In this document: piece by piece, positions 30,310-63,742 of the stretch
How the letters are laid out: each line of letters opens with the position of its first letter
Numbering within the stretch: the stretch's first letter is position 1
Origin: Artemia franciscana
Lineage: Eukaryota; Arthropoda; Branchiopoda; Anostraca; Artemiidae
Assembly: GCF_032884065.1 (NCBI RefSeq)
Contig: NC_088867.1
Coordinates: forward strand, 58,478,675 to 58,542,674
Direction of reading: 5' to 3'
DNA: 64,000 nt
Translations under genes and position numbers: made by a program
The notes under the pieces: model-generated
Databases searched by the model: none
What the model saw: only the letters and a program-made list of their open reading frames with translations
What the model was told of the DNA's origin: nothing

Positions 30310-30482
30310 ACGTAGAAATCGTGGACCTCGTCGAGAGCGAAACTGAGGATGTAGTCAGTGACGGCGCTTCGATTGTCCCAGGAAGGAGTTCTCTACCCGT
30401 AATGACGGTGAATTCAAATTCTTCTTCATCTTCAGAGTTCAGCCTCTCGGCTGAGCCCTTACCTGACCTCGACTTGTCTCTT
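30310..30482 (+). CDS. Unrecognised host gene, internal exon 1 (acidic, Ser-rich)
   Basis: The acceptor 'tttatctattttaag' ends at 30309 and the donor 'gtaagt' starts at 30483. The exon starts with two bases of a split codon and ends on a codon boundary, matching the start phase of the exon at 48926. The upstream frame closes with a stop at 30306-30308, so the acceptor position is fixed. The peptide begins 'VEIVDLVESETEDVV', contains 'NSNSSSSSEFSLSAEP' and ends 'LPDLDLSL'. It looks like a disordered acidic linker, with no domain seen. It is noticeably richer in GC than its surroundings, as expected for a real exon. Earlier exons are missing from view. Membership in the same gene as the exons from 48926 onward rests on strand, phase and the absence of another gene between, so it is less sure than the exon call itself. 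Confidence 0.7.
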
Positions 30483-30783
30483 GTAAGTTTATTTATTTCA
30501 GTTTTTATGCAGATGTTATGTTGCGCTTCTTTTCTGCCTCTATATGCAAATTTTTACCTCAATACGTTATATTGCACTGTACGTTTTATACAGGTTCAGG
30601 CGGGGGGGGGGACCTGAAGAAAAGACCAGTTTATTCTTTCTCGCTAACAGAAATATGAAAAAGAAGCGGAGCAAATAGTTGGAAAAGAAAGAAACAGAAG
30701 AACTCACAAGGAAAATTATGTATAACAAACAGTTACTACAATTCTCAATTGTGACAGTGTGACAATGTCAGTGTCATAACAAA

Positions 30784-30881
30784 TAGCTGTCACAACAAAT
30801 AGTTATGACAATATGACAAATAGTTGTCACAACAAATAGTTATGACAATATGACAAACAGTTGTCACAACAAATAGAAAAT
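30784..30881. repeat. 37-bp tandem repeat, about 2.6 copies
   Basis: 'tagttgtcacaacaaatagt' followed by 'tatgacaatatgacaaa' recurs at 30784, 30821 and 30858. Each unit contains the palindrome 'gttgtgacaac'-like 'gttgtcacaac'. Confidence 0.9.
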
Positions 30882-33780
30882 GAAACAAATAAAAGAAATT
30901 GTCCAGATTTCTTTCGAAAACATTCTACTCTTGGGCAATCACAGCAGATAGCCGTCAGAAACTCAACATCTTTCTAAAACGAGACTTCTAGAAATATAAC
31001 GGGCAACCTAGCGGGATTTTAAGAATATTTACAAACAGCTAACAGGTGTCCGCGACAGGATAAGTCTAGCGCTAACCAGGTGTCTAGCCCTTGGGATAAG
31101 GGGAATGGGGTCTACCGTTTCCTAGCACAACGGATTTAATGATGAATAATCCCATCGGTTCCCATCGAATGTGCTATCATGTTATCTGCATTATTTGATA
31201 TTTTTTTTTCAGATCACTGAAATTGGCAATCGGTATGCCCGATTTTAGACATCTTTAAAATTCTTAGTTATCGAAATTAGCAAATTGTTGCCCGACTTTC
31301 GATTCACAGAAGGTCATCCTGGGTACCGAAGTGCCAACTTTGGTTATACCGTTTCGTTCGTTAGATATGGAACAAAACTTGATTTTCATCTTTTTTATGT
31401 TGGTATGCTCGTTTTATGGGAGCTAAAAAGTCTTCTATGTAAATTTTCAAATGTTGACTTAAATCAAGTAATATGCATTCACTTTTGAATAATAATACAA
31501 CATAAGTAAATTAGGAAAAAAAGTGATAAAATTTTGTCTTTTAGACTAATGAAAGGAGAGTGGGGGCAGTCATTCTAAAAAAAAATATGATTTTCTTATA
31601 TTTGATTTTAACTTCATGTTGCATGTCATGGAAAAATAACAATTGCATGTAAATGAGGAAACATTTAAAGAAACTAGAAAATGTTTGGGCTTAGGCCGCG
31701 CTTCATCATTTTCAGTCTGAGATAAAGGGGTTTGAAACAAGGAGAAAAACCTTGAAACAATAATCAACTGAATCCAAAACAACCTTAAAAACCTGCCCTA
31801 ATAAATCTGGCTTGCAGCGGTAGCTAGCAACCTAGTAAGAGACGATTGTGTCCCATAGTAAAAAACAAAATAGGCCATAACTCCCAAACCTAGAGTCAGA
31901 TCAAAAAGAAGTACACTATTGGAACTACCTTGTCCAATACTTCTATATAGGAAATTAACTGTCCCTTGGCTTGAATAACCAAGAAAATTTATTGGCTTGA
32001 AAAACAAGAAAAGTGGCTGCATGCACAACATTCTGAGTCGACGGCATTTTTTTTCGTTTTTTTATCGCAGCTAGCGGGGCACTGGAAAACCATAGAGAGC
32101 TATTTAATAGCTCATTTTATGGAAAATTGCTGCATATAGTGCCTTTTGAACTAAAACGAAATAGTTTTTCAAATGTAATCAATTGTTTACAAAAAACTGA
32201 ATTTTTCTATAGCGCCGTAGCAGCAAATATTATTAACATCATATTGCATAGGAAGATCAAAATAGTGTTTTTAACGTTATAAAAAGCATGTAGATATAGT
32301 TATATAAAATTCAGTAATTCTTTTTGGGACTTGACAAAAAAATGATTTGTGAATTAAAACAATAGTAATACCTGAAAAATTTAAATAATCTCTCAGTTCA
32401 AAGTTATAATTGTCTCCTGGAACCAAACTTTTTTTGACTTAGCTCCTAAGGCGCGTATCTTTATAACCGTTGTCTTATATTTCCATTGTAAAAAAAATCT
32501 TTTTTTTATTTTAGTTTTTAGTTTTATATTAGAGAACAAACAATAGCCTGTAGTAATTGAAGTACAAAGCACACCATTACACTAATATGAAGGATGGGTC
32601 TAGGTAATTAAGATGGGAATTATGCAAGTTTAATCGGTGTCAAGGCTGTAGAGATGGCTGAAACCTGGTAAAGAATAAACCATGGGATATTTTGGATTTA
32701 GTTAGCTGCCTGATTCTTTGAAGTTCGTCTCTTACTATTCCAAATAAGAAAATGCCATAGGCTTTTCTTGCTTAAATACATAAAGGATCAATATAATTCG
32801 TCTTAAATGCTGTTAGTCAAGTAGTTTTTAATAGATTATAACAAAGAACAAATACTTGCTCATAGTAACTGGAATATTAATTAATAGTAGTAGTTTTACC
32901 TGTAGTGACATTATCATCATCAGTAAGTTTTCTAGGTTATGGTGCAATATTTGACTTTGCAATATTTGAGTCCGGTTACAGTAAGGAACGAATAGAAAGA
33001 GCCCATGGTAAGATAAAAGAGCCTCCTTCGCCCTATCTATAGTGCTATAGTAAAATGCGAAGGCACTCAGGTTCAACTCAGTAAAACCTGATAGTAAAAT
33101 ATTACCGATTTAACAAAAGCTATTGTAAATTTGGCCTTAAGAAACTTCCCCTTTATCCTTGTTAAATGAAATCCCCCAGGATTGTATTTTTTTTTCTATT
33201 TTGAAAGGCTTCTCAGAAGACCCTTGGGAGCCATCTTTGAGAACTGGCTGAGAATATTTCTTTCTTTATGGGTTTGTGTTGTATTTTTTGTGATCCAGCT
33301 AGTGTGGTCTTGGAAATTTGTAGAGCCACAGCAAGTTTGTGTCCTCTTCTGTACTAATAACAAACATAATATTGTACTGTATATAAGATTGAATTGAGCA
33401 AACAAATCTTCTGCTTTCGTTTTTAAGTAAAGGTTTGTTGTAATTTAAATTGACAAAAGCAGGCAAAAGTGCTAAGCTCTGATATCATCTACGTGAAACA
33501 GAAGAAATCGCTATTTATTAATATTATTTTAAATTTGTTTGTCTTTACAACTTTCTATCGTTCTCAAATTAGGTGGTTAGTCCGTCCTCTAGAAAAACTG
33601 ATAGCCAAAGGATTAAAAAACAATTTCAGCAAGTATTGTAAAAGCAGCTGACATTATTTTTTTAACATTATTTTTCAACATATCCAGGGTTTTACTCGAT
33701 GGTTTGTTGTGAACTATTTGTTCTGATCTGTTCAACTTGGAATTATTGGACAGAGAGGCCTAAGTAACCGAAATCAAAGG
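30882..33780. other. Intronic AT-rich stretch
   Basis: No recognised gene, RNA or repeat. ORFs such as 31285-31488 and 33182-33397 have no motif and lie in AT-rich DNA without splice-consistent conservation. Confidence 0.5.
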
Positions 33781-33789
33781 GTGTTCCTG

Positions 33790-33970
33790 GTGGCATCCAT
33801 TGGGAGGGGGGGATGGAGTTGGAACCCGAAATTTTTGCCCCGCCCACTTAGAATTTGAAAAATACCTTTTGGGGGGGGGGTAATTTCATTGCAAAATGCC
33901 TTTTTTTTATTTTCATCTTATATATTGAAAATAATTGCCCCCCCCAGGATATCGAAAAATACCCTGGGTG
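33790..33970. repeat. G-run/C-run repeat fragment
   Basis: A G run at 33872-33880 and a C run at 33938-33944 flank 'aaaatgcctttttttt'. 'ttgaaaaataccttttgggg' and 'tatcgaaaaataccctggg' are partial repeats. It resembles the B blocks at 54708 and 55478 in layout, though not closely in sequence. Confidence 0.45.
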
Positions 33971-34069
33971 TATCTTGTAGTTCCTTTAAAAAATAGAAAG
34001 TGGGAGAGGTTTCAAGTGGGCCTATTTCCACACAAGAAAGTTGGGAGATCCAGGTTTGTAATGTTATGA

Positions 34070-34265
34070 GGCTCCTATGGCTATGATGGACAAAAGGTTA
34101 AGATGGACAGGTTGTCCATTACGGATGAAAGATCATTGGCGGCCAAAAATCGGCCATCCAGCTGGGGCCAACGAAAACTAAAAAAGTCTTCAAATGGGAT
34201 GAGAGGGGACCATGAGGAAGGATCTAAAAAAAGTTTAATTGGACGGGGTAAAGGGAATGTGACTC
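34070..34265 (+). pseudogene. LINE C-terminal relic
   Basis: Reads 'KRLRWTGCPLRMKDHWRPKI' then 'PAGANEN', and after breaks 'EGTMRKDLKKV', matching the 'RLRWLGHVLRMKDDR..KI' to 'WEDVINKD' region of the LINE at 14400-14560. Strongly decayed. Confidence 0.65.
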
Positions 34266-35052
34266 TTCCTTAATACCATAAAATTACAACACTAGCCTGC
34301 AGGGTTGCGCATTTTATGGGTTAGAGAGCCAGCAGAGAGCCAAGCTCGATGTTGCCACTTAATATACAAGTAACTGAAAAAAGGATAAGGATATGTAATT
34401 CCTCCCTCTATACATGAGACTAGTTCAGAGGGCACCAATGGGAAGTTTTTGGTCTACTCAGAGCAGTTTTTGTAATCTGTACCCCTTGAAAAATTCTTCC
34501 CAGAGGAGGTACATTGTAGAAAACGAACCTTGTTTGATAATTCGGATGCGAAGCACCCGAAAGCTCAAGAAAACCGAAAGTTTCGGGAGGACAACCACCT
34601 CCCTTGTTCAGCGCAATAAAGGAAGGAAAATTATCGGAAAAAAAAAACTAATAAAAACAAACAACGTTGAGAGCAAACAGAAAAAAAAAACACAAAGAAG
34701 AACACATCCAAAGTGGAGAACCGACACAAATAACAAACAAATAAAATCCAATATTAGCAGAATTTAAAAGCAAAAAAAGCTTAATTCCAAGAGCGAACCA
34801 AAAAAGCCCATTCTCGATCTTAATTTTTTTAATTTTGATTTTGTTACGGAAGGTATTGGGTTTACGAAAATATTTTTAAAATCCAAGAATAATATTGTTG
34901 CCACAAAGTGGACTGAAGTCACTTTCTCTTAATCTGAATGAGTGAGTCTTATATACTGTGCTGCGATATAGTAAGCTTCTAGCCTTCTTACATTACTCTT
35001 CTCTTAAAAAAGTAAACAAAATATAGAGCGTAAACGCAATTTTTGTCATATA

Positions 35053-35225
35053 CAGTAGCAGGAGCGTATCCAGAAATTTTGTTTAAAAAAAAAGAATTAA
35101 AACTACATCAAAAAATTTGTTCATATGTCTTTTGTTACGTTTTTACGAGTAGGACAATTTTTTTAGGGGGAGAGAAGGCTCAAACTCAGTAAGCCTTCCC
35201 TTCAGATTACGGCCTTGCACGATAG
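35053..35225. repeat. G-run interspersed repeat family C, fuller copy
   Basis: Starts near 'ggagcgtatccagaaatttt', continues with 'cttttgttacgtttttacga', 'gtaggaca', a G-rich run, and ends near 'cagattacggccttgcac'. Family order is the same as at 28555 and 55965. Confidence 0.65.
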
Positions 35226-36726
<1,501 letters not shown>

Positions 36727-37004
36727 TATATACATTTATCTACATAAGCAAAAATAGATATTTACAATAAAAATTTAACATTGATATATAAAATACTTTA
36801 AAAGATATATATTTAATAAAACAACTTTAACCACATAAAACCAAATCAACAACAAATTAAAGTATACACACAATCATTTCGAAGTTATACGTTCATATTA
36901 GAAAAAAAAGTTTTAGTTGATGCAATGAATATCTAAGTTTGAGCTTTTTTATTATTTATATTGTTCATTATTAGTTTTAAATATTTGACTACAATCTATT
37001 AATA

Positions 37005-37315
37005 AGTCCTGGCTGAGGGGTTGGCGCGCTGGCGTGGGAATTCTTTGTCCAAGGGGCACAGGTTCAATCCCAGTTGTGACCAGTTATTTAGTTTGGGACG
37101 GGGGTCAGTGGCGTGACTCTGTAAGCTCAGCCAGAGTCGACCCAGCTCTAAATGGGTACCTGGAGAAATCTGGGGAAGGTAATCAGGAAGGGTGTGTGAA
37201 AGCATAGGATGGTTGGCCCCAATCCCCCATTGCTCTTCCTGGCTGAAGGGCCATGAAACAGAGATCAGCACCGCCGGTTTGAACCTTAAGGGTCTAGTGC
37301 CGTCTTACTTGCTTA
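37005..37315 (+). mobile_element. tRNA-derived SINE
   Basis: The head holds RNA polymerase III A-box-like 'tggctgaggggttggcgcgc' (37010) and B box 'ggttcaatccc' (37061-37071), about 50 bp apart as in tRNA genes. The body follows for about 230 bp and includes 'gagatcagcaccgccgg' near 37261, which resembles conserved central domains of animal SINEs. The tail is 'tcttacttgcttactatt'. It cannot code for protein and would depend on a LINE for movement. The tRNA part is too diverged and its acceptor pairing too weak to be a functional tRNA. Confidence 0.8.
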
Positions 37316-38092: not shown

Positions 38093-38618
38093 TTTACCAC
38101 CACCACGTCACATAGTACTCCCAACTTCGGCGAGATTACCAGACAATTTGGCACGTGCGTTACGTGGAACTCATTGGCCCGTTTGCGAAAGTTTGTTGTT
38201 ATTTTTAGCCAGTTCATGGCCAAGGAACCTAAGCATAGGCCAAAGGAGTCTTGAAAGACGACAAAACCTGAAACTCTGTTAAGTTTGCTCTCAATTAATA
38301 TTGACTTTTTTGTGGTGGGCTACTTTCTCAGCACCATCTTACTTAATGATTTAAAAGGGATTCCCCATCCACCACCACGACACTTAGTACTCCCGACCGA
38401 GGGCATATTGTTTGGGAATTAACGCCTGCACTACGCGGATCACAATTGGTCCGTATGCAAAAGTTAGTTTTCATTTTTAGGCATTGCACGGCCAAAAAAC
38501 CTAAGCGTAGGCGAAGGGAATCCTGATAAAAAGACACATCTTGAACCTATTAAGTATGCTCTCAGTTAATATTAACCTCTTTGTTTCGGGCTACTTTCTC
38601 AACACCATCTTAAGTCTG
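38093..38618. repeat. Tandem duplication, two diverged copies of about 245-265 bp
   Basis: Copy 1 (38093-38340) and copy 2 (38349-38618) share 'ccaccaccacg', 'tagtactcccga', 'ccaagcataggc'-like text, 'tgctctcaattaatattgac' and 'gggctactttctcagcacca'. The ORF across copy 1 is not kept in copy 2. Confidence 0.75.
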
Positions 38619-40490: not shown

Positions 40491-40499
40491 ATATGTTTT

Positions 40500-43249: not shown

Positions 43250-43850
43250 AATTTCCAGATTACAGAAAAAAAAATATACCAGCTTTGTAGACCAATCAGT
43301 TATAATTAAGTGCGTTGAAATGATTTCAAAGCTCTAGATTGATGATGTTTTCTTTTAAAATGGGAAAAATTATAGTTACAAAGCAAATTTAATTTCATTT
43401 TATTCAGACAAACTTTTTATATATTTACACCGACATATTATTCTATGCTATCGAATATCGAATTAAATTGTAATCAAAAAAATATTTAGCAAATACACTC
43501 AGTTTTAACAATATTTATTACATTTCCTCCACACAGTTGTACCGACATTCGTAGGAATTATTTTTTTTCAATATTACGACTCTAAACCAATTTTCCCTAA
43601 GTTGCAACCTATCTAGAACGTTTTTTTTTACACCAAAAAATGGTAGCATACCAAATTTGAGAAATAATTATAACAGCGTTCTTAAAAAATACATAAATAA
43701 ATATATACATATATTATATACAATTATTGTTCCCTTAGTGTAAACGCCTAAGATTTTATTCTCCTCTGTTTCTCACCCTCCTTGTGCTCTCCTTGATGCA
43801 GTTTTCTGTCTCCCACAGCCGCCCCACTCCACAGTCTCCCAGCGGGAGGT
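43250..43850. other. AT-rich intronic stretch
   Basis: No feature recognised until the GC-richer patch at 43760-43855. Confidence 0.45.
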
Positions 43851-48925: not shown

Positions 48926-49441
48926 GAAGTTATCTGGTATCTGGAAGCTCCTCTTCAGGCTGAAGATTTTTATCAAGGTGCCCAGTATTTCTATCCACCT
49001 AACCTGTACAGAACACAAATTGAACTCCAAGAAGAAGGTCCCATATATAATATTTGTTACAATGGAGTTAATGGACTTTACCTGTCCTTCCCAGCTGTAC
49101 CATCAGCTATGCCAGTCCCTGTGCAACCCGTACCTGATTTGTTCTTCCATTCTACATGTACCTCAATTGGAAATCATCCCTTAGTTTATAATCCTTCAAG
49201 TACTGAATATATTCCCTATATTACTCAAGGCTTTTATTCTTCAAATGACCATTATGTGTCTCCTGTGGATGTACAAGCTTCAATACTGCCTACATATGCT
49301 AGTACATATCCCAGTACAAGTGTGCCATTGCACCAAAACCCGTCTTTCACCACAAGAGGAGGCGCTAATCGACTTGAACTAGGTGACCATGTGTATATGG
49401 ACTTTACTGATGATTTAGGATTCATTTTCGCTAACAATAAG
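48926..49441 (+). CDS. Unrecognised host gene, exon 2 (Tyr/Pro-rich)
   Basis: The acceptor 'tttttacttttttag' ends at 48925 and the donor 'gtaaac' begins at 49442. The exon is 516 bp, 172 whole codons, open throughout. The peptide starts 'EVIWYLEAPLQAEDFYQGAQ', continues with a Pro/Val-rich segment 'PAVPSAMPVPVQPVPDLFF' and a Tyr/Ser/Thr-rich part, and ends 'LELGDHVYMDFTDDLGFIF' plus 'ANNK'. The last 25 residues look like the first beta strands of a domain completed by exon 3; the rest is probably a flexible linker. No signal peptide or membrane segment is seen. Codon-phase fit to exon 3 is exact. I do not recognise the family from this exon alone. Confidence 0.85.
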
Positions 49442-50335
49442 GTAAACAAACCCTATTTTGTTTCCTTGTGAGTTCTTTCGCTTGATAAACTGTTTTTATA
49501 TTCTTTATTTCCTTGTTTTGAGGGGAAGGATAGATCTAAAATAATATATTTTCATGAAATGTAGTGGCTAAGTTACTAGGCACATAAATAAGGGTGGCTA
49601 CCTTTTGTAATCCTCTTACTTTCAGCATGCTCACTCTGGTAAAAAGATTGGGCCTACAACCTTTGCAGATGAAGCCCTTGCTTAATTAATACGCTTATTT
49701 CCAAAGTAGGCCTATATATTTATGTATTTTTTAATATATTTTTTCCTCCGCGTTTTTTTTATAAATACATTTTTTTTAAATCTAAGGCCGAGCCGTAATG
49801 CTACCATGTTTCAAAATTTCAATGCTTGGTGATTCCTTGAACTATGAAATATTGAAGCCGGCCAGTATCTGAACTATAGCCTAAAGCTCAGTGGCAGAAC
49901 TGTTCTCAGAAACAGTGTTTGGGTGGGACAAATTCAGAACAAACTTGCCCACTGAATTTCTTGCAAATCTCAGTACTTTCTACCTATTGGTGAGTTCTCT
50001 GATAAGATACCAAAGGCTACATCACTCAATCTCGGTCAAATCGCTAATACGTGATTGATTTAAATTTTGCTTTGCAATTGAATACCTTGCCTTGCATAAT
50101 ACAGGTGATACCTCTTCAAGCCAAGTGAAATATGCTTATTAACAAACAGTTTATAAATATCATATGATCAAAATATTCAGTCCATTTTTGGCCGCCAGGA
50201 ACTACGACATTGACATTTTAAGCATAATACGATGAGTCGTCACTGCTCCTACTCTCAGGCACGACCTTACTTATCCTTTTCCTATCCTTATCCTACTTAA
50301 AACAAACAAATATCTAATAATAAATACATTCTGTA
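49442..50335. other. Intron 2, first part
   Basis: No gene or repeat recognised. Confidence 0.5.
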
Positions 50336-50339
50336 TTTT

Positions 50340-50600
50340 TAATAAATACAGTCTAATAGATAAATTCCGCATTGTTAGGAACATTGATAATACCACTCCA
50401 ACTCACTTCTTCAACTTTAAAGAATACAGTAGTACCCGTCAACACCAACACAAAATATACCCACCATGTTCACAGAAAAGATTAGGCCAAAACTCTTTTT
50501 CTAGCCGAGTGTGGAAGACATGGAACGCACTTCCATCAGAAACAGTTGCGATTATCATGGTCTAATCTTTCAAAAGTAGTTTAGCCTCTACAGATTTCCG
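50340..50600 (+). pseudogene. CR1/Jockey-like LINE C-terminal relic
   Basis: Reads 'RIVRNIDNTTPTHFFNF', then 'FSSRVWKTWNALPSETV' and 'SFKSSLA'. The 'F--RV---WNALP--V' to 'SFK--L' pattern is typical of the end of many LINE reverse transcriptases. It carries at least one stop and nothing upstream, so it is a 5'-truncated relic of a different LINE family from the one at 11.6 kb. Confidence 0.65.
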
Positions 50601-50731
50601 TATTAGGTCTTATCACGATCCGTTCTGAGAGTAATTTTCATTTTTTGTATTAGCTGTTTTGTGACCTGTATGTTTTCATAGTGTGTTATTTTTCATAGAT
50701 TTGTATGTGTGTATTATGTTGTCAGCGTTGT

Positions 50732-50733
<2 letters not shown>

Positions 50734-50792
<59 letters not shown>
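50734..50792. repeat. Poly-T run, 59 bases
   Basis: Uninterrupted T, possibly the poly-A tail of a minus-strand retrocopy. No retrocopy body was recognised. Confidence 0.9.
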
Positions 50793-50796
<4 letters not shown>

Positions 50797-51303
50797 CCTT
50801 TAGTGCGACAAGCTTGATAAAGCTTACAGCACTTGGAATTAATAAAAAAAATTACCTTCCTGCTCTTGGCCCCAGGGGAAAGCACCCCATAAAAAAAAAC
50901 TAATTAAAGAAACATCAAAATTCATAAAAATCTTATGTTTATACTTAATTCTGTTATATTTGATTTATTCTTAAACTGTTTATTTGCCACACCTTAATTT
51001 AATAGTTTTCACTAAGAAATGATTTTTTATTTTTCTCTTAAATAAAGCACATGTAATATTTGGAGCAAAATCTGACCATACAGTCGGGGTAGTAGGTATG
51101 TATAATTTTGATTGTGATCGGGTATGAAAATTATGCTGGTTGAAGCAGTTCAAATACTGTATTAAATGAATCTGGCAGCTCGCCAGCTCAAAAAAAACTT
51201 CAACATCAAAATCAGGCTTGACAGTCGGTGGAGTGACTCACAGGTGGAGTTTTCGCAGTTCAAAATTGAAGGTCGATTGCCAAATCAATAAAGAATGCTA
51301 TAA

Positions 51304-51600
51304 ATGGGGCTTTATCAGAGCATTGTACAGAAGGACCAGTGTTTTCAGCTGCAAATTGTTGCTCAGTCTTCTTTGTTACTCCAAGATTCCAGAATAGCTC
51401 CACTTCCAATTATTGGGTGTGATGCAGGAATGACAGGTTCTCATCAAGGAGGACTCCCTGGTCTAGCTTTCATCAGTAATTCTGGGAACGTCCGCTTTTG
51501 GAAGGATAATTTATCAAATAGCCTAAGTAAGAGGCTCTATGATAGATGGCCAATTGCTTTTAATACTTTAGGGTATACTCGGTCGGAACCAGAAGACTAA
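51304..51600 (+). other. Open frame of 98 codons, gene-like but unidentified
   Basis: Reads 'GCDAGMTGSHQGGLPGLAFI' then 'SNSGNVRFWKDNLSNSL', with balanced, non-repetitive composition. 'SGNVRFW' is reminiscent of a beta-propeller strand such as those of nucleoporins. Inside it, 'tgttttcag' (ends 51347) and 'gtaaga' (from 51526) could bound an exon of about 178 bp. Being in an intron of another gene on the same strand, it could be a retrocopy piece, an alternative exon or chance. I do not assign a function. Confidence 0.3.
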
Positions 51601-52790
51601 TTGCTTCTAAGATCTCATATGGTCAGCAGAATTTCAAATGGAAAGACAGGTCCGAGTACATTTACTTACAGCAAGCCGGACCAATGTAGTGGGTATCCCA
51701 ACATGGTCTGCTGTTTTTTTGCCAACCTCTGCCAAAAATGACCCTAACGCATTTGTAACGTTCCTTTCTTGTTGCATTCTCGCAATCAGCAAATTCCAAC
51801 TTCCATCAATATTTAAACCTTAATATTCGTGTATCTTTGCGCAAATCTTAATCTATCCTTTCTTCAATGCTCCGAGCCATTGAGATGACTTTAAAAGTGT
51901 TGATTAGTTATCATTTGGTATCTTAAGTACATAGTTGTTTTGACTGCTTTCCCGTCAGCTATGTCTCTGCTTAGCACCATCTGCTTTTCTTTCCTGATAT
52001 TGATTTAATGTTGCACACTTGTTTACGGGCTGAGGAGCAATGATAAATGTGCTTAAGGTACTGCAAATCTCTAGCCACATGGGTATTAAATGGAATGAAA
52101 CAGAATATTTTCTAGCAAATATTGTATCGCATTTCCTACAGAGAAATTCTCCATGGATTTTGAATTTTTAATCCTTTCAGCTATAGAGCAAAGGTCCATC
52201 ATTCTCACATGTTATTTTCTCTGTATCATTCAAGGTGTTCTACTGTAATATTCTACTGTATTTATTCAAACACTAACTGTTAAACAAAAGAGAACATGAA
52301 ACAGAACGTTTAATAATACGATGGGATAAGATATGTGTATATTTGTGTATGTGTATTATATTGTCTGCAGGGGGGGGGGGCATCAACTTTATAAGTAATG
52401 CATTTTATATACCAAATATTTTACAAAGTACCGGATATTCAGAAATTAGAGTTCATATGGTAGAAAAATACCCTTCTCACCAACCCTGAATTGTTAGTTA
52501 TTCAAAATTAATGATAATCTTTTAGTGATATTGATTTTTAATTTATTATCAAAGAATTTGACTAAATATTTAAATTCTGCTTAAACACAAATTGTAAATC
52601 AACATTTTAGTTCTTACGTAGAGCGTCTAAAAAAATACTTTACAACTGTTTTTGCAATTACAAATGTCGATAGTAAAACCATGTTGATCCAACACAAACA
52701 AAAACTAATTTGGAAAAGTAAGGCAATTTTCAAGACTAAGTACTATAAAGCAATACGTACGCAGTCTATGAATATCATGCCCCTCTATTT
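51601..52790. other. Intron 2, middle part
   Basis: No gene recognised. A G run of 10 sits at 52371-52380. Confidence 0.45.
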
Positions 52791-52799
52791 TATTGGCCC

Positions 52800-54010
52800 A
52801 AAGCAACCGTAATTTCCCCTTACGTTTGAAGCCTCTGTGAAAATCAAGCTTGTCCGCCTTTCTGCTGAAAATTTGGTGGTGGGGAAGGGGTTGTGGGACC
52901 CCATACTGCCTGTATGTATTTGATCACACTTATGAAAATTGATTTTATTGCAAACACTGTATTTTATGGCTATTTTTCTGCTAGAAATTTAGCCATGGAT
53001 GGAGAAGATGGGCTTCTGATTCACATCGATTTGCAATATAGTAAATTCTTGCATTCTTCTGGTTCAAATAAGCTGCTATATCCTACATTTCTACTAAAAA
53101 GCTGGTGGGAAGGGGCTTTAGAGAAGTTATGGCTCACATTACTCCTCTAATCTAATCATGTAGATAGAAACTATTTGCATGAATCTTGTTCAAGCAATAT
53201 GGAACATGTCTACTTAGGTGCTAAAAGGCTGCCAGTTATAGAATCAGGGTATTCTTATAGAGGCCGCTGGCTCACTTTGCTTTAATCACACAGATTTAAA
53301 ATCCTTACATAATTCCAAGTAGAATAAGGTGTACTTGCATTATATTATGGGAAAAATAAGGTGGTCCAGGTTGTTGCGGGGGAAACGGGCCTAATCTGTG
53401 CCTCCGATCATGTTGATTGAAAATTGTTTCCTGGCTTCAAGCCAAGCTAAGTGTCATGGGCATATCTTTTGATCAAGAATTTGACAAAGGGGGAGGGGGA
53501 CAGAGGAGATAGGATCTACGTGGGTGTTGCAACCATTCTGATTGAAAATAGTTAAATGACATTTCAGTAGTGTCAGATCAAAAATTATTCTGGTTTGAAT
53601 TTATGTTGCAAAACGCAGCTTGCCTACTTTTCTGCGGAAAAAGTTGGTTGAAAGGGATGACGGTTTTCCAATCACTCAAACTGAAAATACTTTAGAAAAA
53701 AAATTCAATGGCTCTAAAAAGGTGCTATATGCATATATTCTGTTGGTCAGTTAGTGGGAGGTGTGGTGTTGGAAGGACCAAGGACCCACTATAATTCTCA
53801 GTCCTGTAGATTGAAAGTCATTGTGCTTCAAAGAACAATCAACATGCTTCATTTTCTGCTAAAATGTATAATTCTAGGAGGGGAAGTGGCATATGAAGGG
53901 CTATGGGCCCAACTTATGCTTCCAATAGCGAAGATTTAAAATTAAACGTATTTCCGCTTAAAACATGGTACACCATGACAATCTTCCTGGCAAAAATTCG
54001 GTGGTGAGCG
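52800..54010. repeat. Diverged ~125-bp tandem repeat, about 7-9 units
   Basis: The anchor 'aatcatgtagattgaaaat' and its variants lie at about 53154, 53284, 53406, 53531, 53670, 53800 and 53924, spaced 122-139 bp. Each is preceded by 'ggtggg(a)gggg...gggccca'-like text and followed by 'ttcaagcaa...acatg'-like text. Earlier weak units lie near 52820 and 52922. The units are strongly diverged, so the array is old. Confidence 0.7.
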
Positions 54011-54195
54011 TGAGGGAGAGAGAGAAAGATTCATCTACACAAATTTGTTTTTTTAACTTTGTATTGGTTATTCATTCTAATTTATATTCGTTTTGTCTCT
54101 CATTTAGTCGTTCATAGCAGTTTCCTCTCACGTTCAGCTTAATTTATTATGCAACTTTATTTCTACTCAATTTAGAAGCAAAAAGCCTGCTTCGC

Positions 54196-54223
54196 CACAA
54201 AAAGCCTTTGCAGGCTTTTTGTG
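54196..54223. repeat. Perfect 12-bp hairpin
   Basis: CACAAAAAGCCT (54196-54207) pairs with AGGCTTTTTGTG (54212-54223) around a TTGC loop. A second small one, 'ggggacttcggcccc', follows at about 54246-54260. The context with 'tgcttcgcttgct' repeats resembles a mobile element end. Confidence 0.8.
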
Positions 54224-54417
54224 GCCTTGCTTTGTGTGCTTCGCTTGCTACTGGGGACTTCGGCCCCTGTGAGCTTTTTATTATGAGGGTATTTCCTGTG
54301 TAAATAAATGATTGTTACTGTGAGATAATTTTACCCCTTGTTGTTTCAAAATAGTTGTGCTGAGAATGTCTCGTTTCTAACTTAGTAGTTTTGCAGTTTA
54401 CTCTCACCCCGTCAATG

Positions 54418-55691
54418 TCAAATCCACCTCATAGGATCATGCTAGTCTCCCAACCTATAGGGCTTTTGAACCCTACCTGGCATCATATGAACTTTTTTAG
54501 GTCGCCAATAGAATCCAAATGACTGAAAGGTCCGGAAATGTTTTCATTTTTAGATTTATTGAACTGGTTTATTTGAATATTATTGAACTGGTTTCAATAT
54601 TTTTTGAGTTTCAAAAATATTGAAACTCAATATTTTTGAAATATTATTGAACTGGTTTAAACCGCATTATTGAACTGGTCCCTGGTCTGGATTGCTGGAA
54701 TTAAAATTAAGTAATTACCAGAACTTTCATTGGATGTAGTAAACAATATGGCAGATACATTTTTTTTTAGCTAGAAAAGAAATCAAGACGAGAGCAAAAA
54801 TAGCCATCAGGGGTCTTATTTTTTTGGGGGGGGGGGGCAATTGCCGCCCCAGACTTTGGAACATACCGTCCTTATGGCATTTTCATCGAAAAGTACCTTT
54901 TTTTTCATTGAGCGAAATCAAAATTTCATAATCCACCTCATAGGATCCACGAAATCCACCTCATAGGATCATGCTAGTCTTCCACCCTATAGGGCTTTTG
55001 AACCCTACCTGGCATCATATGAACTTTTTTAGGTCGCCAATAGAATCCAAATGACCGAAAGGTCCGGAAATGTTTTCATTTTTAGATTTTCATCATCTCC
55101 ATTAGCTTGATCGTATGCAGTATTCAGTTCAACAACTGTGTGGAGACAATATTTTAAAATTCCCTCATTGACTCACTATCTTTTTTTTTTAAGCTTCAGA
55201 TTTCCGTTTCTGTGGCGGGTCACAGAGGATCGATTGCTGTCTCGCATCCTTTAGGAACATTGTTAAAAAGAGGAAATAGATGTGAGTCTACACTTTTTCA
55301 CGAAGAAGGAGAACATAGGTAAGAAGTTTGCTTGGGTGTTTTTCAATGTAAGAGAGGTAGGGAGGGGATTATATTTATACGTCTAAAATGGAATATGGGA
55401 AAACAGTTTTACGGTTCTGTTGATGTACTTACAGCAATGGATCTCAAGGAACTGCTTTCCTATAGGTCCATTGTGTGGTTAGGTAATTACAGAACTTTCA
55501 TTGGATGAAGTAAACAATATGACAGATACATTTTTTTTTAGCTAGAAAAGAAATCAAGACGAGAGCAAAAATAGGCATCAGGGGTCTTATTTGGGGGGGG
55601 GGGCAATTGCCGCCCCAGACTTTGGAACATACCGTCCTTATGGCATTTTCATTGAAAAATACCTTTTTTTTCATTGAGCGAAATCAAAAAA
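54418..55691. repeat. Interleaved direct repeats around exon 3
   Basis: Block F occurs at 54418-54560 and 54950-55091 ('ccacctcataggatcatgct' to 'aaaggtccggaaatgttttc'). Block G occurs at 54708-54925 and 55478-55691 ('ttcattggatg(t/a)agtaaac' to 'tcattgagcgaaatcaaaa'). Both pairs are about 95% identical by eye. The order is F, G, F, exon 3, G. Confidence 0.85.
55194..55318 (+). CDS. Unrecognised host gene, exon 3
   Basis: The acceptor is the strong polypyrimidine tract 'tctttttttttt' plus 'aag' at 55191-55193; the donor 'gtaaga' starts at 55319. The peptide is '(LQ)ISVSVAGHRGSIAVSHP' then 'LGTLLKRGNRCESTLFHEEG' and 'EH', leaving AG to complete Arg with the first G of exon 4. The alternating hydrophobic pattern suggests beta strands. 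A second in-frame acceptor, 'cttcag', at 55194-55199 would drop only Leu-Gln, so two isoforms are possible. Phase fits both neighbours. The exon sits between highly similar duplicated blocks (54418-55691). Confidence 0.85.
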
Positions 55692-55964
55692 AAGAATAGA
55701 ATTGTCCCCCCCTCCTAGGTTTTTAAAAATACACCGCCTCCCTCCTCTCACACTACATTTTCGCGAATTGGCGTCTCGGATAGGTATTGGTAGTAACTAT
55801 GAAATGCAGAAATTCCTTCACAATGAAGAACAATATTGACTCAACTAACATAAATGTACTGTAACCCCCTTGGGTACAAAACCAGAGAGAGACTACCAGA
55901 ACTGTAATAACTGTGGGAATAATGGAAACAGGGCTAAAGCGTTTCAACAAACAGAAAAATTTTC
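55692..55964. other. Intron 3, first part
   Basis: C-rich start ('ttgtcccccctcctagg'), otherwise nothing recognised. Confidence 0.45.
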
Positions 55965-56160
55965 CAATGCCTATGGCCATATCCAGTATTTTTGTCTTGG
56001 GGGGATTTTTTGGGGGTATGAAACATTTGAAAAAATACATCAAGAATTCTTTTAATATTCATTGTTTTACTTTTTACAAGTTGGACATTTTTTTTGGGGG
56101 GTGTGTGGAGGGGAGGGGGAGTTCAAACCCGATAACCTCCCTGCCCCTTGATACTACCTT
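55965..56160. repeat. G-run interspersed repeat family C, fuller copy
   Basis: 'ggccatatccagtatttttg', G runs, 'ttttacaagttggaca', then 'ttcaaacccgataacctccc'. Same order as at 35053. Confidence 0.65.
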
Positions 56161-56330
56161 GCCAGTAGTTACGAATTATAGATACCTTGGAGATATTTTG
56201 GATTGAGGGTCAAATAGGAAGATAGGTCTGCGACCTAATATTAGAACACTGGAACCCACAGTAATGACAGTTTTTGAGTGTGGTTCTGAAACGTAGGCTC
56301 TTCAAAAGGCTGATGAATATGTAATATCAC
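56155..56330 (+). pseudogene. LINE C-terminal relic
   Basis: Reads 'VTNYRYLGDILD', a stop, then 'RTLEPTVMTVFECGSET' and 'ALQKADEYV', aligning with 'FTYLGSIISE' to 'AKVMTVVKYGSEAWALRKAD' of the LINE at 11.6-14.7 kb. Decayed by stops and a short deletion. Confidence 0.7.
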
Positions 56331-56379
56331 ATATATTATTACTGGCCAGAGTGAGGCAAGGGCCATACTAAAGGGCCGA

Positions 56380-57540
56380 AGACCCAAGCAAGCGGAGGGA
56401 GGTGACCAAAAGCATGCCTAGTCAAAAGACCCACAAAGTGGTCCTTTTTGTCAAGTATATCTAGATTCTAGCAGAAGACCCTGCTTCACCGGCTCCTTTG
56501 TCTGTAAAAAACCGGCTTTGCTGGTTTTGCTGTTTACTTCTGCTCGCATGGGTATTCAACCCTCGGAAATATAGCATGATACTACCTTCCTATAACGACA
56601 GTTGGGAGTCCTGTCCTCGGAAACTCATTATTATGATGGCATATTTCGTTCTCTCTGGGGATGGTCAGGCCTTCAGCACCAGGAAACTTGTTATCATGAT
56701 GTTATATTTATTTATTTATTTATTTTTAGTTGCTATATTTAGAATTTTTGTGTTTTATATGTTTTCTAATTCTAAAATTATTCTGCGTTGGCCTTATTTG
56801 TCATGTGTCTAACTTCATTAGTTCAGCTTATTTTTTAGTGTACATACACACACAAGGATGCTTGATTTATGCATATAGACTGGAAGAAGAGCCAATTTGG
56901 CCGGCTTTTTGTCGTCTTCATTCCCTCGAAACAGCCCAGGCGGCAGTTTCGGTGAGTCTAAAGCCCTCGGCCTATCCCGCTTGTTATCATGATGTTATGT
57001 TTCCCCACTTTACTTTGTTCTTAAAATTCTTCTCATTTTTATTTTCATGGAATTTTTCATATTTTAATAATCTTAAAACATTTCTACATCAATTTTCATA
57101 TATTTAAGTTGATTTGAGGGTGTTTTATAATGCAGCCTATATCTAGCCTTTGGGCTTTAAATGCTTGTTATCGTGACGTCACACTACTGTTTTTTTTTTC
57201 TTTTTTTGTGTTTTCGTTTAAATTCTTTGGATATTTTAATTTTATCCTTACGACTCCAAAACTAATCTGCATCTGTTTTCACAATTCTAAGTCAATTTGT
57301 TTAGACTAGATTTGATATGCGTATTTAGGTATACTAGTAAGGAGTCAGCCTCGGTGGTTATTTCGCTAGTAAGAACCGGTTTTGCCGAATTTTCGTCGTC
57401 CATTTCGGCTCGCTCGAGTATTCGTCCATCGTGAATATGGTCAAATGTTGCCACCCTCAGCTCACTTTCCTCACTGAGGGTGGCAGCTCAGACCTTTGGC
57501 GCTCTACGCTTGTTATCTGCCCATCATACTTGTCTTTTCT
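56380..57540. repeat. Cluster of diverged repeats with 'cttgttatcatgatgttat'
   Basis: 'cttgttatcatgatgttata' occurs near 56688, 'cttgttatcatgatgttatg' near 56981, 'cttgttatcgtgacgtcaca' near 57164 and 'cttgttatctgcccatcata' near 57511. Each is preceded by 'ccctcgg' or 'ggc(t/g)tt' text. 'aaaccggctttgctggtttt' (56509) is a small hairpin recalled by 'gaaccggttttgccgaattt' (57374). The last unit runs up to the acceptor of exon 4. Confidence 0.6.
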
Positions 57541-57564
57541 ATATTTTTTTTTATATCATTCAAG

Positions 57565-57757
57565 GTATGTGAAGTTTTGGCATATGGGCATAAGTTTTGG
57601 CCTTAACAGACAAGGAATAGCGTATCTACTTGACAAAGGAGGAGTCAGAACCAAATTTGATACGTTTAATGCTTTTCGAGACGACATGATTACCAAGGTC
57701 TCAGAGGAAACAAAAATGTTTAGGCAAGATGTATATGCTGGCAAAAATCAAATCCAA
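57565..57757 (+). CDS. Unrecognised host gene, exon 4
   Basis: The acceptor 'ttatatcattcaag' ends at 57564 and the donor 'gtgagt' starts at 57758. The first G completes Arg with exon 3; 64 whole codons follow, so it ends on a codon boundary. The peptide is 'YVKFWHMGISFGLNRQGIAY', 'LLDKGGVRTKFDTFNAFRDD' and 'MITKVSEETKMFRQDV', ending 'KNQIQ'. 'VKFWHMGISF' and 'YLLDKGGVRT' look like the conserved core of the protein. From memory similar text occurs in uncharacterised insect proteins (VKFWH.GISF followed by LVDTAGTR), but this cannot be verified here. Confidence 0.88.
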
Positions 57758-59527
57758 GTGAGTATAAACAATTTTTCATCGCGTGACTGTAAAAAGGGAT
57801 GCTCAACATAAGTATTGGCATTAAGCTCAGACCTTTCTAAACTTTTCAAAAAAAACTAATTTTTCATCAAAATGCTAATCTTGAGGAATCAGATTTTTTT
57901 TTCTTTTTTATCAGCAGTGTATTGTACCATAGAACATTCCCTGAATATTTTGCCGAGAGTATGTTTTAAAATAGGACTAAATGTGCCGCTACAATTATTC
58001 CTAAAATCTAGCCATAAAGTTTTCTCATCACAATACAATACTAAGATATATAATTTTTTCGTAGTTGAAACAGATATTGAATTCAGCAAAATCTATGACA
58101 GTGAAAGCAAGATTTCGTTTTGCATTTGTTGAACTTACCTACAACACTGTCATTTCATAACCTGAACAATTTTTTGCTTTTCTTTTGCTGTCAAAATCAT
58201 TTTCTTCGTATCAAGGCCTCGGCTGATCTTTTTCTTATAAGTAGTCACATCACATAATAATACAAATTGTAATTGTTGCTAGACTTTATTCTTTCTTTAT
58301 AATTTTCTGGGAAAAGTATTTTGGGGTGACCTACGTTGGTAGCTGTCTCGTTCAATCGTTATTGGTATTGCTAACACTACCCCTCGGAGGAAGCTCCTAT
58401 ATCCTTTAAATTCTTCCCTGTGACCTCTTCCTACCCATTCTGAGGATGATTTTTAGCTCTCTAATCCTTTTTTAAGTGCTTTTATTGATGCCTTTTTTAG
58501 CCCTCTGATGGGCCGGTCAAGCAGCATTATCTTTGGAAATATGTCCTTCTTTATGCCTAAAAGATGGCTTAGCCATCTTCTTTCAGTGATTACGTAAATT
58601 AAAAGACCTCGAGAGAGGGAAAGAGCCATTATTATATGAAATCTAGACAAAAGATGACCTCTCTGGTAAAAAGTAAAGAAAACTGGTTGTGTTGCCTCTT
58701 AAGAAAGGATTCACACGCTGTAGAACAAAGGAGAAAATAAAAATATCAAATATCTATTTATTTCCTTTTTTATGACCTGCTGAAAGTCAAACTATCTACC
58801 AAAGAATATGTGAAAACTTGTAATTGGCACTAGTATTGAAAACAAATTCACCAGCGCCATCTACCATAACGACTTTTTGGACCCAAAACCGTTGTATACC
58901 ATATTTTCAGGCACTTTTCGTATTTTCAGGAGGGTAAAGAACAGCACTAAAACTTAAAACTGGCCCTAGGTATCGAAGATCAAATTAAAATCTGCGTTCG
59001 TTGTCGCCATCCTTTGCTCTTATGTATAGATGAATCTGTCATTAGAAGACCTCTGGACAAAGGACTATTTTGATAGTTTTGTATTTTAGAGTCTAAAAAT
59101 CTACGAAAAAAAAAATAAAAAATTCAGTCCAGTTAAATGATCAACTCAGCAATTTTCCTCCTCCCTCTCTCCGAAAGTTGGCGTTTTGTTGTTGTTCTTT
59201 TTTTTATTTAATATAAAGGTAAAAGAATCAGTGAACTTTAACCATATGACTTTTCACGTCCTAACCTTAGGCATTCAAGGTGAAAACGAATTTGATCCCA
59301 TTCCTTGTGTACAATGCTAGCAATGAAAACACAGAATGTGAGCAAAAATAGAATGAAAAAATGCAGTAAAATATAAAATAGAATGCATGCTTGGAGTATG
59401 AAAAAACATAGAATGGGTCGTAAATTGCTCCCGAAGGCCTTTTTTTATTGCTAACATTATTTATTACCAAATAACACACACAAAAAAAGAAATTGATAAA
59501 GATAACCAATTTATTTCTTCTTTCTAG
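57758..59527. other. Intron 4
   Basis: No gene recognised. 'ttagctgccttttttagccctctgatgg'-type text around 58480-58660 faintly recalls LINE-derived sequence on the minus strand ('ITERRWLSHLLGIKKD') but is too short to assign. Confidence 0.4.
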
Positions 59528-59700
59528 TCTGCAATCCAAGAAGAGTCAATAAATATGAAGAGAGAAATGGTTGCCAAAAGTCCTGACGGTCAAATCAGCA
59601 TCCAATCTCATGATTTTGTCTTTTATTTACTCTCAACTGGAGAGCAAGTCTGGTGGACCAAAACTTTAACGATCGTTAAAAGGGAAGGCGGGACACTAGA
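59528..59700 (+). CDS. Unrecognised host gene, exon 5
   Basis: The acceptor 'atttcttctttctag' ends at 59527 and the donor 'gtaagt' begins at 59701. It opens on a codon boundary and ends with GA, completed by A of exon 6 to Glu. The peptide is 'SAIQEESINMKREMVAKSPD', 'GQISIQSHDFVFYLLSTGEQ', 'VWWTKTLTIVKREGGTL'. Alternating beta-strand-like pattern with a charged start. No catalytic motif or zinc ligand set is visible. Confidence 0.88.
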
Positions 59701-59894
59701 GTAAGTTATTAATATATTTGTATGTCTGTTCTATCTGTCATCAGTCTTATACTAAAACTAGCCAATTTTATTGGCCAGAAATTTCTCTCAATTTGTTATG
59801 ATTTTTTCATGTGTTATTGTTATTTGATAACTTGGAAAATTAAAAAAAAACTTTCTTTTTCATTATTCATTATTCTGATAATTAAACAAAAAAA

Positions 59895-60205
59895 AAAGTT
59901 TTTTCCACTGAAAGTAAGGTGCAACATTAAGACTTAAAACAAACAGAAATTAATGCGTATCTGAGGGAGTGGCTCCCTAGTCAATACCTCGCTCTTTATG
60001 CTAAAATTTGAATTTTGCTCCAATTCTTCAAGAATGACCATGAATCACAAAGGTCATTTAATTAGAACAGACAGCTCTTTTGAAAGTACTAAAAAAAAAT
60101 TTTGCGTTAAGACCGATGTTTTGACTTGAGGGGCGGACCCCTATACAAATTAATTTCTGTTCGTTTTAAGTTTTAATGTTGCTCCTCACTTTCAGCTGAT
60201 AAAAC
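59895..60205. repeat. Fold-back element family B, third copy
   Basis: Left arm 'gtaaggtgcaacattaagac' to 'ctcgctctttatgctaaaat', right arm 'ttttgcgttaagaccgatgt' to 'taatgttgctcctcactttc'. The loop includes 'tgaatcacaaaggtcattt', the reverse complement of the 1310-1560 loop. Directly followed by repeat A, an arrangement that may also hold at the left window edge. Confidence 0.7.
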
Positions 60206-60235
60206 TTGCTTTTCTTTATTTAATTACTGATCATT

Positions 60236-60990
60236 TTTTAAAAGATTCTGGGAAATCCGGTGCCCCCATCTTAGAAATGTCCATTCCCCCTTTAAGTCAT
60301 CGTCCATGGGAAGATCCTCCCCCGTAATCCCCGACCCCCCCCCCCACAAGAAAAAATCCCTTCTGAAAACGTCTGCACACTTCCCAATAACCAATACTAA
60401 ATGTAAACAGTAGACAAAGTTCATAAATTGCAGCCCTTTCCCTGGGGACTGTGGGGGATTCAGTCATCCTCAAAGACATAGGTATTGGATTTTTGACTAT
60501 GCTGAACAAAATGACTATCTCAAGATTTTGATCGGGGGACCTTGAGAAAAATAAGCGCGGGAGGGGGCCTAGTTGTCCTCTAATTTTTTGGTCATTTAAA
60601 AAGGGCACTAAAACTTCTAATTTCTGTTTGAATGAGCCCTTTCGCGATATTCTAGGACCACTGGATCAATACAATCATCCCTGAGAAAAAGAAACACGTA
60701 AACACGCATCGGTGATCTTTCGTAAGGCAAAAAATACAAAATTCCATATTTTTGCAGATAGGAGCTGGTAACCTCTAGATTAGGGCTTTCTGATACGCTG
60801 AATTTGATGGTGTGATTTTCATTAAGATTATGTGACTTTTAAGGCGTGTTTTTCCATTTTTTTCGAAAATAAGACATTGACTGACGAAAGAGGCACAGTT
60901 TAGACGTTTTTCGTGACGAAGCTTTCTTAAAATGGGAGGAGGCCTAACCAATTGTAAATATTCAAATATGGACAAAATTTCACCTAAAAG
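60236..60990. repeat. Interspersed repeat family A, copy 2
   Basis: Matches 55-770: 'aaaacgtctgcacacttccc', 'ccctggggactgtggggga', 'acaaaatgactatctcaaga' and 'aatttgatggtgtgattttc'. A C-run at 60336-60345 varies between copies. Non-coding. Confidence 0.75.
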
Positions 60991-62671
60991 AATTTCTAAG
61001 CTGGGGCTACAAATAGAGTTTCCTTTTTTTAAAACTGATTTGGTGGACCTTATAGTATAAATATCAAATGAAAATTAGTGACTCTTTTGCTCACCCTTAG
61101 GCTCCCTGAGTTCACTGTTTTCTTTTTTTTCTCTCTCTCTCATGCCGTGAAGATTACTTGGTAACCTTGTAGCAATATCTGCCTTTTCTTTGCTGACACA
61201 AACTTTTCCTTATATGTTCTTTCATCGTTTTCCTACTTCTTTTCTCCCAGTTTTCCCCTCCCCTAGAAAATCCTCGCTTTAGCTTTAATAAATGCAAATT
61301 GATTTTAGAAGAATGTACCGAAAATAAATAATATCTCTGTGTCGTTTTTAGTGATCAAAATTATTGGTCAGTATCTTAATTTTTTATGATAAATTGAATC
61401 GATTCCAAAGAAAAAATGAATATTTTCAGACCAATTTCAATTGCAGTATTAACTATAATAAGATTAGACCTGGTAAGCAATTAGCCTTTAAAAGCTCTTC
61501 ACTTAAAATAAAAGTTTGAAATGACATTCACTGTCTTATTTTTATTCAGTTACCCTTTCATCGTTACTTAGGAAGGGTCTTCTTCATTTAGTTTCAGTGT
61601 TTGTTTTAAGGTTTGTTTGGTATCAGCATTTCAGTATATGAGCAGTGCATCTGCAGACGATAGTCACTGTATATGAGATCAAAATATTCAAGGTTTTTCA
61701 CTGTATAATAAAAGGATTTATCCCTATTTGAACTGTTATTTGTGCAATATTGTTCTGTGTACTTTTATCTGTATTTTTACTAGTTTATTCTGCACTGAAG
61801 ACGGTCGAGTGGAGGTCTATGGGTCCTTGAAAATGGATCTAAAAAGGTTTTAATGGAAACCTTGATAATAAGTTGCCATATCTAGGGGAATATGGTTCCC
61901 TGACTGGTATGAAAGCTGGTATGAAATGATGATAGATTGTAATTTTTGAGCCTATAAATGTAGCTATTTAATTTCACGCCATTCCGCCATGGTTTGAGTG
62001 CTTGCAACTCTGATAATTTATAATCAAAATTTAAGCTTATTAGTTTTATCCAAGTTTGAGTCAATACTGTGTGGATGCTGGTCCAAATATCAATAATTAT
62101 CTGTTGGAAAATCTTTTCAAAAAGCTGTCCACACCCTCTAAACAAGTAATAAATATTGTCTTCTGAATCAAGACGGAAAAGGACGGTTTTAAAAACAGTA
62201 AGTTCTTCTTCTTTCTTTTTTACTTTTATAGCCATAAGTTGTGCAATGGTTGTCCTTGCGTAGTGCCTGCTTACAGTCTCACATTCCTTCTAAGGTTCTT
62301 TTCAAGGTGTTGACGGCTGAATAAAAGGTGCTGTTTTTTTCTTTTATTCTCACCAGAAGAAGTAAACCAATTTTCAAATAGAAAAACCCTTATACGTCCT
62401 ACCAAATTTTGATGCTTCTGTTATGTAAAAAACCTAACAGGTTTTCGATAAGAATGCTATGATATAGCTTATTGCATAAGATACGTAGGCCTACTCATAT
62501 TGGTAATATGATTTATACATTTGCCTGCACAATGCTTCAACTTAGACCAGTTGGCCTCCATAATTTCTTGAGGCCTATTCTGATGGTCTGTGTGTGCTCA
62601 ACTGTATTAAGGAATATAATGGGTATTTTACCGAAACCTTTGGTTATGAGGCTCATAAACGGTTGTGTAAT
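60991..62671. other. Intron 5, middle part
   Basis: No gene or repeat recognised; the minus-strand ORF at 61882-62235 has no known motif. Confidence 0.45.
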
Positions 62672-63160
62672 GAATATTGGAGGCTAAAGTGATGACATTG
62701 GTCAAATATGGCTCTGAAGCATGGGCGCTCCGAAATGCAGACGAAAATTTACTAGATGTTTTCCAGAGAAATTGCCTATGGATTGTTCTGGGTACCCGGC
62801 TGACTGACCGTATTTCAAACAGTAGATTGTACGTAAAATGTCGTTCAATCTCGTTTTCTAGGACTATAATGAAAGAAAGGTTGAGATGACTAGGCCACGT
62901 TCTGCGGATGAAGGATGACAAATTGCCGAAGATTGTCTATTTGGCCAACCGTCTGGGGCTATACGGAAAGCAGGTCGTCCTCGCCTGGGTTGGGAGGATG
63001 TCATAAATAAAGATTTAAATGAAATGGAAACTTTCTGGGAGGGTGTAAAGAGGGGGCCTTGAATAGATTAGGTTGGAGGAGGAGCTTGCGTAGCTATGTT
63101 GGCCTCAGGCGACTTGGTGCTGCAGTGAGCTATTAGTAGTAGTAGTAGTAGTAGTAGTAG
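62672..63160 (+). mobile_element. 5'-truncated copy of the 11.6-kb LINE, with (TAG)9 tail
   Basis: Begins at 'atattggaggctaaagtg' and reads 'AKVMTLVKYGSEAWALRNAD', 'LLDVFQRNCLWIVLGTRLTD' and 'RTIMKERLR' before a stop, ending in (TAG)9 at 63134-63160. It is over 90% identical by eye to 14212-14679. 'gtaatg' just before it and 'gtaatgg' at the end of the tail could be a short target duplication. Confidence 0.85.
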
Positions 63161-63483
63161 TAATGGAATTAGAAACATTTTTGACATAGTCAAACAACTA
63201 TTCTAGATGGAATAAAGATTTTATGGCTCTTTTTAAAAATGTAAATAGTCTTATAGAATAAAACAAAGTTTTAAAAGGAAATTCTATTGCTTCTTCAACT
63301 CTGTGCTTTTGGAAATTGACTTAGTAAAGGTATCCTGTAGCTCTCACGTAGCTACGGAGTATACTATAGTCTAACTTAAAACCCCTTTTTGTGACACTTC
63401 CAGATGATTCAATATACGATAGTCTGACTAACAATTCCTTTTTTAGAACATGTCCAGATGAATAAACTGTTTTTCATTTTCAG
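63161..63483. other. Intron 5, end
   Basis: 'agtctaacttaaaacccctttttgtgac' near 63370 and 'agtctgactaacaattcctt' near 63420 form a short diverged direct repeat. Nothing else seen. Confidence 0.45.
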
Positions 63484-63742
63484 AATATTTGGTAGAGGAA
63501 GTGATGAAAATGCCAATTTGTATTTGAAATCTTGCGCAAGGACTGCTAGTTTAACTTTACAGATTCCAAACCTTCACCTGACAACGTCGTTGAATTGCAA
63601 CAATCTAAGGAAGCATTTTTATTTTCGGCATAGCCACATAGACACGAAACGAGTTCATTATGATGGTGTCAAAGTAGCTGTTAGACTTAATGGCCAAGAA
63701 GCTTCATTAGATGAAAATGGCCAACTTGAACTTCTACCGTAG
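63484..63742 (+). CDS. Unrecognised host gene, last exon with stop
   Basis: The acceptor 'gtttttcattttcag' ends at 63483. The first A completes Glu with exon 5, then 'IFGRGSDENANLYLKSCART', 'ASLTLQIPNLHLTTSLNCNN', 'LRKHFYFRHSHIDTKRVHYD' and 'GVKVAVRLNGQEASLDENGQ', ending 'LELLP' and TAG at 63740-63742. The C-terminal 'R-H-DG--V-VR--G--A--DE-GQL' pattern resembles, from memory, the end of uncharacterised conserved arthropod proteins. With the previous five exons the visible protein is about 478 residues. Confidence 0.88.

Follow-up and report, generated by a model that had tools for sequence, protein, structure and literature searches.

In the window, i.e. the whole stretch of 64,000 nucleotides of Artemia franciscana DNA that was analysed, we rebuilt six exons on the plus strand from the phases given in a preliminary description of this DNA. 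Joined together, these exons encode 428 residues followed by a TAG stop at 63740-63742, and the reading frame is kept across all five junctions (phases 0, 0, 2, 0, 2), exactly as that description had claimed. The exons, with their splice-site scores, and a candidate exon located further upstream are as follows:

10421..10566, plus strand, candidate 5' exon: 41 codons from the ATG at 10444, end phase 0; donor 3.88, acceptor 3.48
30310..30482, plus strand, exon 1: phase 1 to 0; weak acceptor -0.16, donor CTT/GTAAGT 2.68 (the slash marks the border)
48926..49441, plus strand, exon 2: phase 0 to 0, 172 codons; acceptor 6.23, donor 2.36
55194..55318, plus strand, exon 3: phase 0 to 2; acceptor 4.02, donor 4.75
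57565..57757, plus strand, exon 4: phase 2 to 0; acceptor 0.28, donor 5.16
59528..59700, plus strand, exon 5: phase 0 to 2; acceptor 3.99, donor 2.53
63634..63742, plus strand, exon 6, terminal: phase 2 to TAG; acceptor 1.35

All six exons have open frames and splice sites. The exon borders had been described as consensus, which holds in part only, the acceptors of exons 1 (-0.16), 4 (0.28) and 6 (1.35) being weak. Given that exon 1 is entered in phase 1 and carries no ATG, we concluded that the model covers the 3' part of a gene. Downstream of the stop, the nearest AATAAA is found at 64024, at a distance of 282 bases. Exploring the alternative borders, we found that exon 4 has a second in-frame acceptor at 57610, 45 bases downstream of 57565, with a score of 3.05 vs 0.28, and that the score of the whole exon is 16.9 when it starts at 57610 vs 11.3 when it starts at 57565. 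Starting at 57610 removes 15 residues including the VKFWH-GISF block, one of two sequence blocks that the earlier reader had likened to uncharacterised arthropod proteins. Both blocks are present in this open frame, the second one (R-HYDG---VR) in exon 6; the VKFWH-GISF block, which is part of exon 4 as first drawn (57565) and is positioned between the two competing acceptors, may be intron. Exon 3 also has a second in-frame acceptor, at 55200, the use of which would cost two residues.

Searching 130 kb upstream of exon 1 yielded no convincing chain of 5' exons. The top-scoring exon running from an ATG to a donor in these 130 kb was 10444-10566, contained in the candidate 5' exon 10421-10566, which has an internal-exon score of 23.0 and none of whose 146 bases lie in repeats. 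Since exon 1 has to be entered in phase 1 and the candidate leaves off in phase 0, the two cannot be joined directly, and one or more linking exons must be missing. Between the candidate and exon 1 the assembly has a gap, at 25966-26065. Several other frames listed in the 5' search are derived from transposable elements.

To score the chain against chance, we used our own exon-chaining program, a dynamic programming procedure that combines generic metazoan splice-site weights, set without training on the host species, with an amino-acid-based codon score, and ran it over positions 30001-64000. At a penalty of 14 the program returned the six-exon chain with exon 4 starting at 57610, and at penalties of 10 and 12 it returned the same chain with an additional exon of 10 residues at 43819-43848. 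At a penalty of 8 four extra exons were inserted, and exon 1 was exchanged for a shorter exon in a different frame. The acceptor at 57610 was chosen at all four penalty settings. The whole chain scored 54.4, 40.4 and 26.5 at penalties of 10, 12 and 14, respectively, compared with maxima of 20.5, 13.4 and 7.4 in 100 order-2 Markov sequences and of 22.7, 15.0 and 9.0 in 100 order-4 Markov sequences, indicating that at each of these penalties none of the 200 Markov sequences reached the score of the chain. The minus strand of the same region scored 19.2, 16.5 and 14.5. Analysis of exons 3-6 alone (49442-64000) gave scores of 18.9, 10.9 and 3.4, which were reached by 0, 0 and 9 of 200 order-2 sequences and by 1, 0 and 10 of 200 order-4 sequences, respectively; at a penalty of 14 exon 3 was dropped and the minus strand scored higher (7.7 vs 3.4). 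The result for exons 3-6 alone is less clear, and therefore much of the statistical weight of the chain sits in exons 1 and 2.

As a control with real DNA we scored 31 overlapping tiles of 34 kb, 30 of which were taken from both strands of the rest of a 264-kb stretch of the host chromosome and one of which was the minus strand of the region itself. Three of the 31 tiles scored above the whole chain, all of them on the minus strand and covering 91-92.5 kb. Another coding-like stretch is found near 91-92.5 kb, within all three of these tiles. The tile carrying the downstream dynein exons scored 24.6 vs 40.4 for the chain at a penalty of 12. Taken as a spliced gene, the chain thus has in-frame exons, splice borders, a stop and a score above chance.

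The composition of the exons was examined by codon position. In the joined exons G+C is 0.52, 0.385 and 0.336 at the first, second and third positions, with 0.528, 0.406 and 0.336 in exons 1-2 and 0.51, 0.36 and 0.325 in exons 3-6, while the five introns have a G+C content of 0.346; the pattern looks coding-like in both halves of the chain. Repeats, defined by self-comparison within the 264 kb, cover 17,638 of the 64,000 bases of the window, and none of the 1289 exon bases lies inside them, which bears out the earlier view of a spliced gene set among repeats. When the C-terminal 228 residues, encoded by the last part of exon 2 and by exons 3-6, were searched against the genome of 1.27 Gb, all five matches were the gene's own exons (best 8 candidates scored); this search placed the window at positions 58478675-58542674 of its contig.

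Scanning the neighbourhood, we found an exon of a dynein heavy chain at 145407-145871 (window coordinates; DHC_N2, E 7.2e-56), about 82 kb downstream of the gene and on the same, plus strand; exons at 137-138 kb presumably resemble this neighbouring exon. Pfam scans of eight plus-strand translations, in which X took the place of stops and which comprised every frame of 1-14999 and of 15000-29999 and two of the three frames of 49001-63999, found a non-LTR element at ~11.8-14.2 kb as their sole feature, and Rfam gave no match at the gathering threshold. For the open reading frame at 51304-51600, an assignment as enterovirus capsid VP4 was rejected, its best match in the PDB (E 0.04) being taken as chance, and the idea of a nucleoporin found no support either.

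That the host is an arthropod is supported by its arginine kinase, exons of which, taken from the same genome, show up to 88% identity to a shrimp arginine kinase. Three exon pieces, once joined, matched arginine kinases in the PDB. Apart from 4rf6, an entry matched in two stretches (417.9 bits in total), the highest scores were about 357 bits, e.g. for 4bhl, 5zhq and 8yx0, followed by 348 for 4am1 (all four from decapod crustaceans), 346 for 5u8e (a spider) and 343 for 1bg0 (Limulus). With such small differences, the scores point to an arthropod that is perhaps closest to crustaceans.

The product of exon 1 is acidic and serine-rich and is probably disordered, and that of exon 2 is a linker rich in Tyr, Pro and Ser followed by the onset of the C-terminal domain. 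The C-terminal part had been put at about 300 residues; we treated 228 residues as one domain instead. A crude propensity count of these residues gave 65 beta-prone and 45 helix-prone ones, which is compatible with, though not proof of, a beta-rich fold in the C-terminal part. Searches of Pfam yielded sub-threshold matches only, the best of them to Ntox27 with an E value of 0.065, far below the cut-off of that family, and a variant shorter by two residues gave no match. NCBIfam likewise gave no match and the matches in the PDB were at chance level (best E 0.15). Hence the statement that the C-terminal part belongs to no nameable family holds for Pfam, NCBIfam and the PDB, where no match was significant. 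Pattern searches found no match in viral contigs and 225 matches in prokaryote genomes, none of which was confirmed as a relative.

We are confident that a real, previously unnamed protein-coding gene exists here and that the six exons make up its 3' part. It is improbable that they represent a chance chain of open frames or the remnant of a decayed gene, as might be argued from the fact that three of the six acceptors are weak, that no start exon could be joined and that exons 3-6 on their own are borderline at one of the three penalties; this is countered by the whole-chain score, which 0 of 200 shuffles reached, by the open frames and splice sites of all six exons and by the coding-like codon positions in both halves. 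That the exons stem from the coding sequence of a transposable element or from a captured repeat is extremely improbable: repeats shared within the 264 kb do occupy 17,638 bases of the window, yet they include no exon base, the C-terminal part matched its own locus only among the best 8 candidates scored in the 1.27 Gb, and the Pfam search revealed no transposase or reverse transcriptase domain.

Two further explanations place the gene in a known family. According to one, the product is a divergent protein of the polo-box type related to C5orf34, acting as a phospho- or partner-binding scaffold. Local alignment to human C5orf34 gave a score of 56 that was reached by 1 of 300 and by 6 of 2000 shuffles, over a stretch of ~40 residues (LKRGNRCESTLF...VKF-WHMGISFGLNRQ) which partly overlaps the start of Polo_box_4. 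This shared stretch is better than most shuffles, and by eye the small beta hairpins with DG turns look alike in both proteins, but the order of domains in C5orf34 (C5orf34-like_N, C5orf34_2nd, Polo_box_4, C5orf34_C) is unmatched in this protein. Moreover, C5orf34 was chosen post hoc, after the resemblance had been noticed, and reversed C5orf34 also scored high (45, reached by 11 of 500 shuffles). The PB4 segment of C5orf34 alone was weak, with 99 of 1000 shuffles reaching its score, as was C5orf34 outside the single stretch (307 of 1000 shuffles), and much of the aligned part of exon 4 is possibly intron. PF22834, PF22833, PF15016 and PF15025 gave no match at E values up to 10, at which the HMMER filters drop very weak matches, while human C5orf34, used as control, matched all four Pfam models. 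Given the post hoc choice, the high score of the reversed sequence and the restriction to one stretch, we did not accept C5orf34 as the family and consider a relation to it unlikely.

According to the other, the exons encode part of a divergent SPAG17/PF6, an axoneme protein of the central pair, in the vicinity of a gene for a dynein heavy chain. The dynein heavy chain exon downstream on the same strand would fit such a setting, and a style of hairpins with Asp/Asn-Gly turns is shared by eye; this likeness is accompanied by no convincing similarity of sequence. Under BLOSUM45, one of four scoring schemes, 13 of 300 shuffles reached the score of the SPAG17 alignment, but this alignment passes through linkers, and under the other three schemes the score was reached by 54, 252 and 278 of 300 shuffles. 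In addition, neither SPAG17 (9ijj) nor PF6 was matched in the PDB at E values up to 10, and full-length SPAG17, which is presumably far longer than this protein, gave no significant stretch against the 264 kb (best E 6.1). With scores at the level of shuffles except under BLOSUM45, SPAG17 was rejected as the family, and we regard this explanation as highly improbable.

Most likely, then, the six exons belong to an ordinary gene that is unannotated and whose function is unassigned, and we infer that it is expressed. Transposons and simple repeats would have filled the introns of this gene. Towards the N terminus its product would be acidic and of low complexity, and the C-terminal domain, ~230 residues long, would contain numerous beta-prone segments as well as turns of the Asp/Asn-Gly kind. 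In such a protein the C-terminal domain might bind a partner protein, which the flexible N-terminal half would tether. We tentatively suggest that the protein works as a non-enzymatic adaptor, a guess more apt to fail than to hold; it follows from the lack of a match to an enzyme or transmembrane family, from the low-complexity N-terminal half and from the possibly beta-rich C-terminal domain, and so builds on the absence of other signals. It is possible, but rather doubtful, that the C-terminal 230 residues represent a beta-rich domain family that is conserved across arthropods and absent from Pfam, perhaps one that binds a partner through a fold resembling the polo box yet distinct from the families known so far.

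Annotation easily misses or breaks up genes such as this one, whose short exons are scattered in repeat-rich introns. If no orthologues exist, the gene would be restricted to its lineage; if orthologues do exist, the six exons would supply the model of a gene whose domain found no match in our searches of Pfam, NCBIfam and the PDB.

The repeats, open frames and protein-coding matches around the six-exon gene are listed below, with one arginine kinase locus from elsewhere in the genome; window coordinates above 64000 continue the same numbering into the downstream chromosome.

Window 3022-5524, minus strand: series of open frames
Window 11749-14670, plus strand: non-LTR retrotransposon (endonuclease and reverse transcriptase)
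Window 17-26 kb: densely packed AT microsatellites, together with T-rich tandem arrays and tandem units of ~293 bp
Window 25966-26065: assembly gap, 100 N
Window 51304-51600, plus strand: open frame of 98 codons
Window coordinates 91861-92522, minus strand: long coding-like stretch (L018)
Window coordinates 145407-145871, downstream of the gene on the same strand: dynein heavy chain exon (L024; DHC_N2, E 7.2e-56)
G000:C9:44354570-44355537, on another contig: arginine kinase copy (L027 and L031)

The frame of the non-LTR retrotransposon is interrupted by stops, and its reverse transcriptase matches RVT_1 with E 6e-26. The minus-strand open frames at 3022-5524 resemble a hAT/ZMYM-type transposase, and the fragments adjoining the tandem repeats resemble a Helitron helicase. 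Searching the 98-codon open frame revealed no Pfam family, and its top PDB match reached only E 0.04. L018, which may be either a gene or a mobile element, gave a sub-threshold Pfam match to the Iml1 N-terminal domain (E 0.00086).

The arginine kinase copy on C9 is almost contiguous, carries several stops and looks like a processed pseudogene; on C18 the first exon of arginine kinase is present twice, at 16815211 and 16875081. Downstream of the gene, a second locus (L023, window coordinates 137209-137986) is perhaps also dynein heavy chain. Should the host prove to be a crustacean whose sperm lack flagella, the dynein heavy chain exon would merit attention.
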